A stretch of DNA of 64,000 bases from Bradyrhizobium commune (GTDB lineage: Bacteria > Pseudomonadota > Alphaproteobacteria > Rhizobiales > Xanthobacteraceae). This document shows positions 11,593 to 36,264 of this stretch, in pieces. Both the position numbers and the translations under genes were made by a program. Each line of letters starts with the position of its first letter. The stretch's first letter is position 1. The notes under the pieces are model-generated. The model worked only from the letters and a program-made list of their open reading frames with translations, was not told the DNA's origin and made no database searches. The stretch covers positions 5,518,001-5,582,000 of the forward strand of contig NZ_CP061379.1 of assembly GCF_015624505.1 (NCBI RefSeq), given 5' to 3'.

Positions 11593-11667
11593 TGGCTGGG
11601 GCGGGAGGGATCGAACCTCCGAATGGCGGAATCAAAATCCGCTGCCTTACCGCTTGGCTACGCCCCA
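11593..11667 (-). tRNA. tRNA-Gln (anticodon TTG)
   Basis: On the minus strand the sequence folds as a cloverleaf: acceptor TGGGGCG pairs with CGCCCCA, the anticodon loop is TTTTGAT with anticodon TTG, and the T arm is GGAGGTTCGATCCCTCC. The 3' CCA is encoded. The length including CCA is 75 bases. Confidence 0.95.
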
Positions 11668-11907
11668 ACTGCGAGGGAACGGCTGAGCGCGACGACCGCA
11701 GCATTCCCTCGAATGCTGCCGGTCTATAGGGTGCGGCGCGGCATTTCAACCGCCTGGAGGGGCAAAATACCACAGGCCGGAGGCGGCTCCCGCCACACTT
11801 TAAATGAAGGTCCCGCCCCCTGCCCGATCCCGGCCCGCTTCCGGCCATTGAGACCTCGCGCGTTTCATGGGAATACGGCGCCAAACCTTGTCCACGGGGA
11901 GTGAGCC

Positions 11908-22946: not shown

Positions 22947-24186
22947 GCGCGTGAGGATCGATCACGTCGGCCATCGCGGCGACGGCGTCTCGCTCGACGA
23001 AGGCGACGCGCTCTACGTGCCGTATACGCTTGGTGGCGAGACCGTCGAGGTCGACCATGTCGCGGGCAACCATCCCGACCGCCGCAAGCTGCTCGCGGTC
23101 GAGGTCGCAAGCCCCGAACGCATCGAGCCGTTCTGTCCGCACTTCGGCGTCTGTGGCGGCTGCGCCATCCAGCACTGGGCGACCGAGCCCTATCACGCCT
23201 GGAAGCGCAACATCGTGGTCGAGACGCTGGCGCAGGCCGGCATCGAGTGCGAGGTGGCGCCGCTGGTCGATGCGCATGGCGCGGGGCGCAGGCGCGTCAC
23301 GCTGCACGGAAGGTTCGGCACACACAGTATCCTCAAGGTCGGCTTCGCGGCGGTGAGTTCGCATGACGTGATCCCGATCCATCGCTGCCCGATCCTCGAT
23401 CCCGCGCTCGACGGCGCGCTTGATGCGGCCTGGGCGCTTGCCGAACCGCTGACATCGAAAATGCCGGTGACGAAGCCGATCGACATCCAGGTCACCGCCA
23501 CAGCCAATGGCCTCGATGTCGACGTGCGCGGCTCCGGCCCGCTGCCGACGGCCCTCATCACGGCGCTGTCGCGCGTCGCCGAGCAGCACCGGCTGGCACG
23601 GCTGACGCGGCATGGCGAGCTCGTGCTGCAACGCCTGCCACCGACGTTGCGGATGGGCCGCGCCGAGGTGACGTTGCCGCCGGGCTCGTTCTTGCAGGCA
23701 ACGGTGGCGGGCGAAGAGACGCTGGCCGCGCTCGTCGCGGAGCGCGGCGGCAAAGCCAAGGAGGTTCTCGACCTTTTCTGCGGCGTCGGGCCGTTCGCGC
23801 TTCGGCTCGCTGAGAAGGCGCGCGTCACGGCTTTTGACAGCGACGCTGGCGCGATCAATGCGCTGGTGAAAGCCGCGCGCGCACCCGGCCTGAAGCCGAT
23901 CAAGGCCGAGCCGCGCGACCTGTTCCGTCGCCCGCTGGTGCCGCAGGAGCTGCGCGACTTCGACGCCGTCGTGTTCGATCCGCCGCGCCAGGGCGCGCAG
24001 GCGCAGGCGCTGAAGCTCGCCACAAGCAAGGTCCCTGTGGTGATCGCGGTGTCCTGCAACGTCGTAACGTTTGCGCGCGACGCTCGGTTGCTCATTGATG
24101 GCGGTTACAAGATCGAGAGTGTCGTTCCGGTCGACCAGTTCCGCCACACGCCACACGTGGAATTGGTCGCGCGCTTCACGCGCTAG
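22939..24186 (+). CDS. Class I SAM-dependent RNA methyltransferase, TrmA/RumA (RlmD-like) family
   Basis: The 415-residue protein has an N-terminal TRAM-like segment, then an iron-sulphur cysteine cluster ([16 protein letters not shown] near 65) followed by the Rossmann SAM motif [15 protein letters not shown] near 275, [13 protein letters not shown] near 345 and the catalytic Cys in [15 protein letters not shown] near 370. This family makes 5-methyluridine in tRNA or 23S rRNA. The start GTG at 22939 overlaps the tlyA stop; a GTG at 22951 is an alternative. It is probably the last gene of the dxs group. Confidence 0.92.
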
Positions 24187-29401: not shown

Positions 29402-30256
29402 TCAGCGGCCCCAGCGGTCCGACCAGATCTTTTCGCCGATCATGCAGTTCACGCGCGGCTCCTTGTCCTTGTCGGCAACGCGCAGCACCCGACGCTCCGG
29501 CGTGCGGCCGGCCACTTCCATCAGGAGCTTGGTGCGGATCGCCTCCTTGAACTTGTCGCGGTCCTTGATCGCGATCACGAAGGAGCCGGGACCGCCGACG
29601 ACGCAGTCCTCGTAGTAGTAGTCGAGATTGTCGATATCCATGGTCGAATAGGACGGCTCCTTGACCATGATCGGCAGGCCGTTGATGACGATCCCCTTCT
29701 CGAGCGCGGCGTCGCGCGCCAGCGTGACCGGGCTGCCATTGTTGTTGGGGCCGTCGCCGGAGATGTCGATGACCCGACGAATCCCGTGATAGGGATCCTC
29801 GTCGAACAGCGGCATCGCAAATCCGATCGCGCCGGAGATCGAGGTGCGCGAGGCGCGTCGGATCGGCGTCTTCATGATCTCGGCCGAGACCGCATCCGCC
29901 GTCTCCGGTCCGTCGATCAGGCGCCAGGGGATGATGATCTTCTGGTCGGTGGACGCGGCCCACTCGAAATAGGTCACCGCGATCCTGCCGTTGGGACCGG
30001 CCTTCAACGCTTGCAGGAACTCCTTCGACTGGATCGCCTGCGCGTAGCCTTCGCGCTGGATCGCGAGCTCGTCCATGTCCATGGAGTAGGAGACGTCGAC
30101 CGCGAGGATCAGCTCGACGTCGACCGATTGCGCGTCGCCATCGGCGGCCTGCCGCTGCGGTTGATATCTTGGTCCTGGCGCCGCGACGCTCGCGACGTCC
30201 CCTCCGGCAAGCACGCCGGCCACCAGCACAGCCCCGATCGAGAACAGCAAGCGCAT
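29402..30256 (-). CDS. Exported von Willebrand factor A-like (DUF1194) protein
   Basis: The 284-residue product has a signal peptide (RLLFSIGAVLVAGVLAGGDV). A von Willebrand A-type domain follows, with the metal-ion-dependent adhesion site DVSYS near residue 54, a conserved Thr/Ser segment (ASRTSISGAIGFAMPLF near 135) and DISGDGPNNNG near 165. DUF1194 proteins are secreted or periplasmic and of unknown role. It appears to be monocistronic, with its promoter in the 250-base spacer before the fluoride riboswitch. Confidence 0.85.
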   Translation of the reverse strand: MRLLFSIGAVLVAGVLAGGDVASVAAPGPRYQPQRQAADGDAQSVDVELILAVDVSYSMDMDELAIQREGYAQAIQSKEFLQALKAGPNGRIAVTYFEWAASTDQKIIIPWRLIDGPETADAVSAEIMKTPIRRASRTSISGAIGFAMPLFDEDPYHGIRRVIDISGDGPNNNGSPVTLARDAALEKGIVINGLPIMVKEPSYSTMDIDNLDYYYEDCVVGGPGSFVIAIKDRDKFKEAIRTKLLMEVAGRTPERRVLRVADKDKEPRVNCMIGEKIWSDRWGR

Positions 30257-30467: not shown

Positions 30468-30495
30468 TTGTCCGGCGCAATTTCCATGCTAGGCT
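30468..30495 (+). promoter_or_regulatory. Possible sigma-70 promoter for the fluoride-responsive transcript
   Basis: TTGTCC (30468-30473) and TAGGCT (30490-30495) are spaced by 16 bases. Transcription would start a few bases before the aptamer. The -10 match is weak, so this is tentative. Confidence 0.3.
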
Positions 30496-30507
30496 TGCTG
30501 CACAGAT

Positions 30508-30568
30508 GGGGATGGAGTCCCCCGACAACCGCCCGGCGGTCGATGGCCGTAATGGGCTGATGACTCCT
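30508..30568 (+). promoter_or_regulatory. Fluoride riboswitch aptamer (crcB RNA motif)
   Basis: All conserved parts of the crcB motif are present. GGGG (30508-30511) pairs with CCCC (30519-30522) as the pseudoknot. GGAGT (30514-30518) pairs with ACTCC (30563-30567) as the first stem. GCCC (30531-30534) pairs with GGGC (30554-30557), with a variable inner hairpin CGGC/GCCG. The invariant GATGGAGT and CTGATGACTCCT strings flank these. The downstream operon encodes a CrcB fluoride channel, which agrees with known control by this RNA class. Fluoride binding is expected to allow read-through of the terminator at 30618. Confidence 0.93.
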
Positions 30569-30617
30569 GCTTGAGGTGAGGCGTCACGGAGCCTCTGCCT
30601 TTGGCGGGAGCATGGAC

Positions 30618-30641
30618 AAACCCGCCGCTGGCGGGTTTTTT
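30618..30641 (+). terminator. Intrinsic terminator forming the riboswitch expression platform
   Basis: AAACCCGCC and GGCGGGTTT form a nine-base stem with a GCT loop, followed by a T run to 30641. GGCGGG at 30603-30608 is identical to the descending arm and can pair with CCCGCC at 30621-30626 instead, giving a ready antiterminator. The hairpin lies 37 bases before the MFS start, so it gates the operon. Confidence 0.88.
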
Positions 30642-30677
30642 GTTGCCGGTGACAAAGGCCAGGGAGAAGTCCACGGC

Positions 30678-31886
30678 GTGACGACGACGACACCGAATGC
30701 TGCGCGCGCAGGGCTGCCCAGAGGGATCTGGGTACTCGGCTTCGTCTCGATGCTGATGGATATCTCGTCCGAGATGATCCATGCGCTGCTGCCGGTCTAT
30801 CTCGTCACCGTGCTCGGCGCCTCCACGCTCACCGTCGGTTTCATCGAGGGCATCGCCGAGGCGACCGCCTCGATCACGAAGATCTTTTCCGGCGCGCTGT
30901 CGGACTGGCTTGGCCGCCGCAAGCTGCTCGCCGCCCTTGGTTATGGGCTGGCCGCGCTGACAAAACCGCTGTTCCCGCTGGCGCCCAGCGTCGGCTGGTT
31001 GGTGGCGGCACGCTTCATCGACCGCGTCGGCAAGGGCATTCGTGGCGCACCGCGCGATGCGCTGATCGCCGACATCGCACCGCCCGGACTGCGCGGCGCG
31101 AGCTTCGGCCTGCGGCAGTCACTCGACACGATCGGCGCCTTCGTCGGGCCGCTCGCCGCAATCGGCCTGATGTGGTGGACCGCGGACAATTTTGCCGCCG
31201 TGTTCTGGGTGGCGGTGCTGCCGGCGTTCCTGTCGTTCGGCCTGATCGCGATGGCGGTGAGCGAGCCCGCGCCGGACGCGGCTCGGGAACTAACGAAAAA
31301 CCCGCTCAACACCGCCGCCATGCGGCAGCTAGGCCCGGTCTATTGGCGCGTCGTCGCGATCGGCGCCGTGTTTACGCTGGCGCGCTTCAGCGAAGCCTTT
31401 CTGATCCTGCGCGCCCAGAACATCGGCCTCAATGCGATGTGGGTGCCGGCGGTGCTGGTGCTGATGAACATCGCCTACGCGCTCTCCGCCTATCCGGCCG
31501 GCGCGCTGTCGGACCGGATCAACCGGACCGCCCTGCTTGCGCTCGGACTTGTCTTTCTGGCGATGGCCGATCTCGCGCTCGCGCTGCTGCCAAACCTTGC
31601 CGGGCTCGCGCTCGGCGTCGCGCTATGGGGCCTGCACATGGGATTGACGCAAGGGTTGCTGGCAGCGCTCGTCGCCGATGCCGCGCCGCCGCACCTGCGC
31701 GGCACCGCGTTCGGCTATTTCAACCTGTTCACGGGCCTTGCATTGCTGGCCGCGAGCGTGATCGCCGGCGCGTTGTGGGACGCGTACGGCCCGGCCGGCA
31801 CTTTCTTCGCGGGGCTCGGCTTTGCGCTGGTCTCGCTTGTGGGGCTGCTCGCGATCGGCAAAAGGCTGGCAGAGGACCGCAACTAA
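30678..31886 (+). CDS. MFS transporter under fluoride riboswitch control
   Basis: The 402-residue protein has twelve predicted helices. The first loop holds the MFS signature in SGALSDWLGRRKLLAALGYG near residue 70, and RFIDRVGKGIRGAPRDALIADIAPPGLRGASFG near 115-150 marks a widespread but uncharacterised MFS branch. GTG at 30678 was chosen because AGGGAGAAG lies nine bases upstream and the frame before it runs through the riboswitch terminator. It is the first gene after a fluoride riboswitch and 31 bases before crcB, so it should be induced by fluoride. Whether it exports fluoride itself or relieves a secondary effect is unknown. Confidence 0.87.
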   Translation: MTTTTPNAARAGLPRGIWVLGFVSMLMDISSEMIHALLPVYLVTVLGASTLTVGFIEGIAEATASITKIFSGALSDWLGRRKLLAALGYGLAALTKPLFPLAPSVGWLVAARFIDRVGKGIRGAPRDALIADIAPPGLRGASFGLRQSLDTIGAFVGPLAAIGLMWWTADNFAAVFWVAVLPAFLSFGLIAMAVSEPAPDAARELTKNPLNTAAMRQLGPVYWRVVAIGAVFTLARFSEAFLILRAQNIGLNAMWVPAVLVLMNIAYALSAYPAGALSDRINRTALLALGLVFLAMADLALALLPNLAGLALGVALWGLHMGLTQGLLAALVADAAPPHLRGTAFGYFNLFTGLALLAASVIAGALWDAYGPAGTFFAGLGFALVSLVGLLAIGKRLAEDRN

Positions 31887-31917: not shown

Positions 31918-32301
31918 TTGAACATCCAATTCATTCTGGCCGTTGCTGCCGGCGGGGCGGTGGGCGCCGTCGTGCGCTATCTCGTTGGCATCGGCTCCGG
32001 CCGCGCGTTCGGCACGGATTTTCCCTGGGGCACACTGATCATCAATGTGACGGGATCGTTCCTGATCGGCATGTTCGCGGCGTTGTTCGCGACAAAATGG
32101 AACCTGCCGCAGGCGGCCCGGATCTTCCTGACGGTCGGAATTTGTGGCGGATACACGACATTCTCGACCTTCTCGCTCGATGCCTGGTATCTGATCGAGC
32201 GCGGACAAAGCTGGGCCTCGGCAACCTACATGATTGCGTCGGTCGTGCTGTCCGTCGGCGCTCTCATTGCAGCCATGCAGCTCATTCGCGCGATTCCATG
32301 A
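31918..32301 (+). CDS. crcB: CrcB/Fluc fluoride channel
   Basis: The 127-residue protein has four transmembrane helices and the Fluc signatures GGAVGAVVRY near 13, GTLIINVTGSFLIG near 37, and GICGGYTTFSTFSLD near 72, which contains the TTFSTF segment lining the pore. Fluc proteins form dual-topology dimers that let fluoride leave the cytoplasm. The start codon is TTG at 31918, preceded by GGGGGA seven bases upstream; no better ATG or GTG is in frame. It is the second gene of the riboswitch-controlled unit. The length is normal for a single-domain Fluc. Confidence 0.95.
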   Translation: MNIQFILAVAAGGAVGAVVRYLVGIGSGRAFGTDFPWGTLIINVTGSFLIGMFAALFATKWNLPQAARIFLTVGICGGYTTFSTFSLDAWYLIERGQSWASATYMIASVVLSVGALIAAMQLIRAIP

Positions 32302-32462: not shown

Positions 32463-32768
32463 ATGAACGACACCGTCACCAAGCCGAAGACGCGGACCAA
32501 GATCAAGGTCGAGCGGCCGAAGCTGCACAAGGTCATCCTGATCAACGACGACTACACACCGCGTGAGTTCGTCACCATGATCCTGAAGGCCGAGTTCCGC
32601 ATGACCGAGGATCAGGCCTACAAGGTCATGATCACCGCTCACAAGCTGGGCGCCTGTGTCGTCGCCGTCTTCACCAAGGACGTCGCCGAGACCAAGGCCA
32701 CCCGCGCCACCGATGCCGGCCGCGCCAAGGGTTATCCGCTGTTGTTCACGACAGAGCCGGAAGAATAG
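32463..32768 (+). CDS. clpS: ATP-dependent Clp protease adaptor ClpS
   Basis: The 101-residue protein matches ClpS: a variable basic N-terminal tail, then KLHKVILINDDYTPREFV with the DDYT pocket that reads N-terminal residues, MTEDQAYKVMITAHKLGACVVAVFTKDVAETK, and a C-terminal strand. ClpS delivers N-degron substrates to ClpAP. clpA is not adjacent. Many alphaproteobacteria carry a second ClpS, and this may be that paralogue. A consensus -10 box lies 64 bases upstream. Confidence 0.93.
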   Translation: MNDTVTKPKTRTKIKVERPKLHKVILINDDYTPREFVTMILKAEFRMTEDQAYKVMITAHKLGACVVAVFTKDVAETKATRATDAGRAKGYPLLFTTEPEE

Positions 32769-35175: not shown

Positions 35176-36264
35176 CTACCGCCCGACCTGTCCGCGATCG
35201 CGGATGAAGTGATCCGCCAGCACGCAGGCCATCATGGCCTCGCCAACGGGCACGGCACGGATGCCGACGCAGGGGTCGTGGCGGCCCTTGGTCATGATCT
35301 CGGTGTCGGCGCCGTTACGATCGACCGTCAGGCGCGGCTGCAGGATCGACGAGGTCGGCTTCACTGCAAAACGCACCACCACCGGCTGGCCGGTGGAGAT
35401 ACCGCCCAGAACGCCGCCGGCATGGTTGGACAAAAAGCGCGTGCCGTCATTGCCGGTACGCATCTCGTCGGCGTTCTCCTCGCCTGTGAGCTCAGCCGCG
35501 CCAAAGCCGGCGCCGATCTCGACGCCCTTCACGGCGTTGATGGTCATCATCGCGCCCGCCAGATCGGAATCGAGCTTTGCGTAGATCGGCGCGCCCAGGC
35601 CTGCGGGCACGCCTTCGGCGACGATCTCCAGCACCGCACCGATCGAGGAGCCGCTCTTTCGGATGCCGTCGAGATACGTCTCGAAGAACGCGGCCTTGTC
35701 CTTGTCCGGACAGAAGAACGGATTCTTGGCAACCTCGTCCCAATCCCACTTCTCGCGATCGATCTTGTGCGGGCCCATCTGCACCAGCGCGCCACGCACC
35801 TTGACGTCGGGCAGCACCTTTCGCGCAATCGCACCGGCGGCAACGCGCGTGGCGGTCTCGCGCGCGGAAGAGCGGCCGCCGCCGCGATAATCGCGCAGAC
35901 CGTACTTCGCCTCATAGGTGAAGTCGGCATGGCCGGGGCGGAACTTGTCCTTGATCTCCGAATAATCCTTCGAGCGCTGGTCGGTGTTCTCGATCAGCAG
36001 CCCGATCGGGGTGCCCGTCGTCACCTGCACGCCGGTCTCCGGATGCGCCATCACGCCGGAGAGGATTTTGACCTGATCCGGCTCCTGCCGCTGGGTGGTG
36101 AAGCGCGACTGGCCGGGCCGGCGGCGATCGAGGTCCTGCTGGATGTCGGCCTCGGTCAGCGGGATCATCGGCGGGCAGCCGTCGACCACGCAGCCGATCG
36201 CCACGCCGTGGCTCTCGCCAAAGGTGGTTACGCGGAACATGTGGCCGAAGGTGTTGAAGGACAT
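35176..36264 (-). CDS. aroC: Chorismate synthase
   Basis: The 362-residue protein matches chorismate synthase throughout: [18 protein letters not shown] near 16, [19 protein letters not shown] near 47, the [18 protein letters not shown] segment near 83, [17 protein letters not shown] near 130 and [21 protein letters not shown] near 268. It converts EPSP to chorismate with reduced FMN in aromatic amino-acid biosynthesis. It is the third gene of a same-strand group with fabI and a histidine-phosphatase-family gene, 85 bases after the latter. Confidence 0.97.

Follow-up and report, generated by a model that had tools for sequence, protein, structure and literature searches.

The leader RNA ahead of an MFS transporter gene and a crcB gene in the window (the 64-kb stretch of DNA analysed, at its full length) is, with near certainty, a fluoride riboswitch, which probably switches on a fluoride exporter, along with a membrane transporter that is uncharacterised, by way of mutually exclusive hairpins. 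We consider it likely that the switch controls the MFS-crcB operon by fluoride-activated (ON) transcription attenuation, relayed through four strands: strand A (CUCCUGCU, at the 3' end of the aptamer) could pair with strand B (GGCGGGAG), strand B with strand C (CCCGCC, the terminator 5' arm), and strand C with strand D (GGCGGG, the terminator 3' arm). Without fluoride, A:B would form once B is transcribed, occupying B and leaving C:D to terminate; with fluoride, the pseudoknot would keep ACUCC, blocking A:B and leaving B free to hold C, and once B:C had formed RNA polymerase would read through into MFS and crcB. Computation establishes the aptamer, three alternative helices, the order in which these appear, and their conservation.

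The aptamer was identified by a covariance search of the window against Rfam, the check that an earlier reading of the sequence alone had called for. RF01734, the fluoride riboswitch (crcB motif), matched 30499-30576 on the forward strand clearly above the cut-off, with 53.2 bits against a gathering score of 34 (E 6.6e-12 across all 64 kb and 5.2e-14 when 501 bases were scanned); the only other above-cut-off match in the window is a tRNA at 11596-11667 on the reverse strand. Helices P1 (30508-30511/30520-30523) and P3 (30531-30534/30554-30557) and the pseudoknot (GGAGU 30514-30518 with ACUCC 30563-30567), all on the forward strand, are Watson-Crick throughout in the window, and the sequence strings named in the sequence-only reading are present, bearing out its description of a crcB-motif aptamer with pseudoknot and both stems. 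We take GGAGU and ACUCC to be the pseudoknot strands, in line with known fluoride aptamers. An alignment of MFS-type leaders, comprising 60 distinct leaders out of 72 (the other 12 are identical copies), retains every P1 and pseudoknot pair in all 60 and all four P3 pairs in 57. The class assignment of that reading thus holds on the Rfam match together with the gene context, a CrcB gene downstream and the same aptamer-MFS order in 37 genomes, and a fluoride switch is confirmed at the sequence level in a genus of bacteria from agricultural soils. The aptamer itself is unremarkable within RF01734, and the window RNA would be expected from its sequence to bind fluoride; the platform and the cargo are less usual, and similar layouts of switch stem and terminator recur elsewhere in the class. 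Weak matches under a relaxed threshold (P9, E 0.12; Trp_leader, 0.41; isrK, 0.67) fell below their cut-offs and were taken as chance.

The first gene downstream encodes an MFS transporter (30678-31886, forward strand; PF07690, E 6.6e-48) from an inferred GTG start that homologues support, preceded by the purine-rich GGGAGAAG at 30662-30669. Thirty-one bases past its stop lies crcB (fluC; 31918-32301, forward strand, inferred TTG start), a fluoride channel gene of the single-gene type whose 127-residue product matches PF02537 (E 5.5e-28, 97.8 bits versus 32.9) and NF010791 (182.2 bits versus 129). The two genes are presumably co-transcribed. On the 5' side of the leader, the ORF at 29402-30256 is read from the opposite strand, and ORFs near the operon at 32463-32768 and 35176-36264 resemble by eye what we take to be ClpS and chorismate synthase. 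We surveyed RF01734 in 120 genomes, 72 of them of the window's genus, its own included; 78 places were listed, and dropping three under the gathering score left 75 in 57 genomes. Thirty-seven of these, in as many genomes, sit 89-133 nt before an MFS match, so that riboswitch, MFS and crcB occur together in 37 of the 72 same-genus genomes; crcB follows MFS in nearly all stretches reaching that far. Named records, among the best 80 loci listed, place MFS-type leaders in Bradyrhizobium. Among those same 80, 38 named loci (L071-L107 and L127) have an MFS of at least 81% identity; their crcB part is a tandem pair in 28, single as in the window in nine, and cut in one. Their aptamers were recognised by motif, apart from L079, L089 and L103, and Rfam, run on L127 and on 11 of L071-L107, was positive in 10 of those 11. 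Single and tandem crcB behind the same switch look as if two Fluc layouts had been exchanged. In one locus (L106:1379-1428) a chrB-b RNA (RF03086) occupies the strand opposite the fluoride riboswitch, some 1.4 kb upstream of it.

We think it very likely that the leader is transcribed from a promoter of its own, with a start predicted a few bases before the aptamer, near 30502, because a block conserved in 45 distinct leaders stands out from the columns further upstream: majority frequencies in the block are mostly 0.7-1.0, against 0.33-0.56 in the columns 57-75 bases before the anchor. The putative elements, conserved across leaders, are TTGTCC (30468-30473) and TAGGCT (30490-30495) on the forward strand, separated by 16 nt; they emerged from aligning leaders, a scan with an E. 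coli-type consensus having returned nothing near the leader. At the other end, the terminator scan and folding placed an intrinsic terminator at 30618-30641 on the forward strand (AAACCCGCC-GCT-GGCGGGTTT and a T run), whose hairpin (30618-30638) has nine pairs, six G-C and three A-U, and a loop of three; the nine-pair terminator with T run had been described earlier with correct coordinates. The scan alone is not significant (three terminator-like sites in 2351 bases, versus 2.0, sd 1.4, in shuffles), and this is the sole one of the three with nine pairs, the other two having five. The fold of the 147-nt leader has a z-score of -4.91, none of 200 shuffles being equally stable, and the terminator keeps nine pairs in 46 of the 60 aligned leaders and eight in the remaining 14.

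In the minimum-energy fold of the leader, GGCGGGAG pairs with the aptamer 3' strand CUCCUGCU, extended by AUG/CAU. The resulting switch stem, or anti-antiterminator, has 11 pairs (AUG.CUCCUGCU, 30560-30571, with GGCGGGAGCAU, 30603-30613, forward strand) and encloses an inner hairpin at 30573-30601. When the aptamer strand is withheld and the transcript ends at 30626-30632, the minimum-energy fold contains an antiterminator, GGCGGG (30603-30608) with CCCGCC (30621-30626) across a 12-nt loop on the same strand. The earlier reading had foreseen this last pairing, which we confirm, and had spoken of two mutually exclusive structures; the opposition between GGCGGG:CCCGCC and the terminator is real, but the account was incomplete, having missed the aptamer 3' strand as a partner of GGCGGG. 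A:B, B:C and C:D are three mutually exclusive helices in order, sharing strands B and C. It is improbable that the leader has only two states, GGCGGG:CCCGCC and the terminator, with no switch stem: the antiterminator pairing such a model needs does exist, but it provides no route from fluoride to GGCGGG, whereas the switch stem provides one and covaries across sites. The predicted ON logic of the four-strand relay is coherent because strand A would pair with GGCGGG when fluoride is absent, and it has comparative support as well.

The order of events was examined by folding transcripts of growing length, a simple energy calculation that leaves aside pseudoknots and real kinetics. The switch stem is complete at 30611, ten bases before CCCGCC starts, with the terminator following at a later length. 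When the aptamer is withheld through 30567, B:C is the best fold at 30626, 30629 and 30632, and the terminator is better from 30635. The inner hairpin with the terminator has -29.2 kcal/mol versus -26.4 kcal/mol for the inner hairpin with B:C, a bare-state gap of 2.8; the best fold at 30638 with the aptamer withheld, which re-pairs 30568-30571 with B, has -34.2 kcal/mol and lies 7.7-7.8 below B:C. Because B:C is never the final energy minimum, the ON state would have to be kinetic, with B:C persisting long enough, as we infer that it may. This gap of nearly 8 kcal/mol has made us marginally less confident of the relay than we had been.

All 11 switch-stem pairs are present in 57 of the 60 MFS-type leaders and the six antiterminator pairs in 59, but the helices of these leaders vary too little for a test of pairing, B:C being too invariant there. 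What variation exists is mixed: a change of C to U at 30605 in strand B (three of 60 leaders) leaves both A:B and B:C paired, and in one leader a change at 30603 breaks a pair in each. The motif filter did not pick up three MFS-type loci (L079, L089 and L103), which stand outside the alignment. RF01734 is carried by two divergent ones among them, by L079, which by eye has two-sided changes in single pairs of P1 and the terminator, and by L103, which has a two-sided change in a pseudoknot pair together with one broken pseudoknot pair and one broken switch-stem pair; L089 gave no RF01734 match, and 109 bases of its contig precede the MFS match.

Covariation of A:B is found across the wider class. 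Parsing of the switch stem took in 74 of the 75 RF01734 sites; all 37 of the MFS type have at least seven contiguous pairs, as do 33 of the 37 others. Compensated stem variants occur in other fluoride leaders (CTCCTACC/GGTAGGAG; CTCCTGC/GCAGGAG), and in two leaders reading CTTCTACC/GGTAGAAG the aptamer strand itself is altered and the pairing compensated. Over 55 non-redundant sites, obtained from 108 rows by dropping two, merging copies and near copies, and thinning the MFS clade, A and B strands from the same leader had a mean pairing score of 19.11 versus 16.46 when swapped, the same-leader score being reached in none of 2000 permutations. Of the 55 stems, 41 have at least seven of eight pairs, and in these pair 6 is A-U in 19, G-C in 16, G-U in five and A-A in one. 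Of 55 class and phylum loci, 33 fitted the motif for the aptamer 3' strand, so that the sampling leaves out unusual leaders. Taken singly, the 8-bp A:B of the window does not stand out when the GC-rich sequence downstream of it is shuffled by mononucleotide (its score is reached in 19 of 200 shuffles), and a single-site p of 0.02 is reached by only two of the 37 sites of the MFS type, compared with 24 of the 37 others.

Strand B also relates to the terminator. It pairs strongly with the terminator in leaders scored as having one (median -12.7 kcal/mol, n=48, of which 39 are of MFS type and essentially one clade, three of those 39, L227, L229 and L233, being classed by leader sequence alone, and two of the 48, G034:C63:211133 and L235, look spurious by eye), versus weakly with a generic arm in leaders scored as lacking one (median -5.2 kcal/mol, n=47, counting L181, for which the leader listing shows a terminator). 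In eight of these 47, B would nevertheless pair at -10 kcal/mol or better, to -14.3 in L226; inspection by eye shows a bulged terminator in one of the eight, L207. Beyond the MFS clade, the terminator-type leaders are L014 (G102), L032 (G041), L054 (G023), L181, L184, L186, L187, L209 and L183, the last with a terminator but no switch stem of six pairs. Folds of leaders from other loci gave the switch hairpin followed by the terminator in three of four, the L209 fragment misfolding over the terminator.

Other leaders of the genus (for example L004, L007 and L015) share the aptamer and the switch stem and differ in that B reads GGTAGGAG, probably a Shine-Dalgarno sequence, with no terminator found after B. 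That B strands read GGTAGGAG in many leaders lacking terminators suggests an alternative for the window, a translational or dual switch in which the trapped GGGAG serves as Shine-Dalgarno for an ORF starting at ATG 30612. In its favour, four leaders have a crcB match 37 nt after the aptamer, with GGGAG appearing to be the Shine-Dalgarno, and the window ORF that includes 30612 continues in frame as far as MFS. Against this, a single base separates GGAG from ATG 30612, the frame is joined to MFS in just five of 37 homologous loci, MFS has its own purine-rich site near 30662, and two leaders combine GAAG with a compensating CTTC, indicating that there the pairing was kept and not the Shine-Dalgarno sequence; we think a translational role here unlikely. 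The one-base spacing and the rarity of the joined frame also led us to judge incidental a 12-codon leader-peptide frame from the same ATG (MDKPA.GGFFVA, 30612-30647), which overlies the terminator and recurs in many relatives. In the four-strand relay, by comparison with these sister leaders, the same aptamer would be wired to transcription via an intermediate strand that resembles their ribosome-binding site, suggesting a route from a translational to a transcriptional switch by gain of one terminator.

Precedent within the class favours a simpler arrangement, in which the terminator competes with the aptamer itself and GGCGGG at 30603 is uninvolved. In the available portion of Weinberg 2010 (PMC2864571), predicted terminators overlap the crcB motif in many cases, and excerpts on the Bacillus cereus crcB fluoride riboswitch (PMC8752731) describe a terminator disrupted upon fluoride binding. 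As far as these partial sources go, the window resembles RF01734 riboswitches in aptamer sequence and structure, in its position 5' of a fluoride-exporter operon and in its expected ON logic, and resembles the B. cereus switch in combining a fluoride-responsive pseudoknot aptamer class with an intrinsic terminator. It differs from both in that aptamer and terminator have no strand in common, the terminator starting at 30618, 50 nt past the last pseudoknot base at 30567, and from the former also in that an intermediate strand relays the state and MFS is the first gene. Because GGCGGG links aptamer and terminator, through six pairs with CCCGCC that nearly every leader keeps, we regard direct competition as quite improbable. 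That the aptamer is intact but the terminator constitutive, or the leader a relic, is very unlikely given aptamer pairs conserved in 60 leaders, a promoter block in 45, and the two-sided pair changes seen by eye in L079 (P1, terminator) and L103 (pseudoknot).

The relay has parallels among riboswitches for other ligands. The TPP and FMN riboswitches are OFF switches, in which the ligand favours the anti-antiterminator; here the ligand would instead break it, so that the direction we infer is ON. The term anti-antiterminator is used for B. subtilis TPP and FMN riboswitches in a table of PMC4448311, and, from that excerpt, the alternation of anti-antiterminator, antiterminator and terminator helices is the likeness to the window. 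For fluoride, we found no description of a relay platform or of an MFS link in the sections available of the literature searched (including PMC7266159, PMC5756330, PMC9331176 and PMC9495176, with the 2012 discovery paper outside this scope). A 2024 review (PMC11139923) lists as riboswitch-linked genes, in the text available, exporters, Na+/H+ antiporters, pyrophosphatase, enolase, formate hydrogen lyase and others, and the words MFS and major facilitator are absent from that portion of its main text; the MFS mention in the available part of PMC11477304 belongs to an FMN switch.

The MFS transporter seems, judging from sequence comparisons, to have come under fluoride control a single time, out of a family partly sited with a chromate regulator. 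This reading follows from three observations. In a tree of 76 rows, which took 16 thinned riboswitch-type rows of the 39 available, the MFS proteins linked to the riboswitch group as a single clade (support 100/89); an Rfam scan detected no aptamer 5' of distant MFS relatives in 59 loci, some of them incomplete; and chrB (ChrB_N by Pfam) lies directly upstream of MFS in 14 of 71 distant-relative loci (L111, L115, L118, L119, L122, L124, L129, L130, L135, L136, L138, L139, L145 and L149), a count that includes two near-identical pairs, L111/L149 and L138/L139. Among distant relatives, crcB closely follows MFS in L164 and lies no more than 600 bases away in L144.

A role for the MFS protein in fluoride resistance is plausible from its regulation and operon, and this tie of an uncharacterised MFS to fluoride, by regulation and a conserved operon, offers a first candidate physiological cue. 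A fuller proposal is doubtful. In it the protein would represent a third type of transporter conferring resistance to fluoride, with fluoride itself, HF, a complex of fluoride with metal or a fluorinated metabolite as substrate; Bradyrhizobium would have recruited it a single time from the partly chrB-adjoining family and placed it with crcB under a fluoride switch with an alphaproteobacterial anti-antiterminator platform. A drug-efflux identity of the NorA type is not supported: 27 NCBIfam models matched, but of the 25 shown none attained its cut-off, and NorA, the best solved relative, matched at only E 9.5e-06.

Other features were seen around the distant relatives. A PAP2 phosphatase-like gene follows MFS in seven of the 71 loci, one match being weak (L116, 32%), and a chrB-a RNA adjoins MFS in L137. 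The distant MFS relative in L160/L197 (G318:C173), which has one in-frame TAG, is closely followed on its 3' side by a fluoride riboswitch.

Fluoride riboswitches, a class whose discovery is reportedly due to Baker in 2012, are also clustered elsewhere. One 4.3-Mb genome of the same genus (G041; L031, L032 and L033; contigs C134 and C15) has 11 listed RF01734 places, 10 of them above the cut-off and eight on one 36-kb contig, near genes for hydrogenase-4/formate-hydrogenlyase-like subunits, an Fe-S protein, a cyclopropane-synthase-like enzyme and a Na+/H+ exchanger. In this genome, tandem fluoride aptamers 144 nt apart (L032:11431-11494 and 11638-11699) precede one ORF, the second with a CCCGCC-type terminator, and positions 24011 and 24414 of G041:C15 are another same-strand aptamer pair. 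A further locus (L034, G034:C63:206000-220000) has three fluoride riboswitches in 4.3 kb, of which two stand back to back with 95 nt between them, with an enolase, a NUDIX, two MutS-like genes and a universal-stress-protein gene as neighbours.
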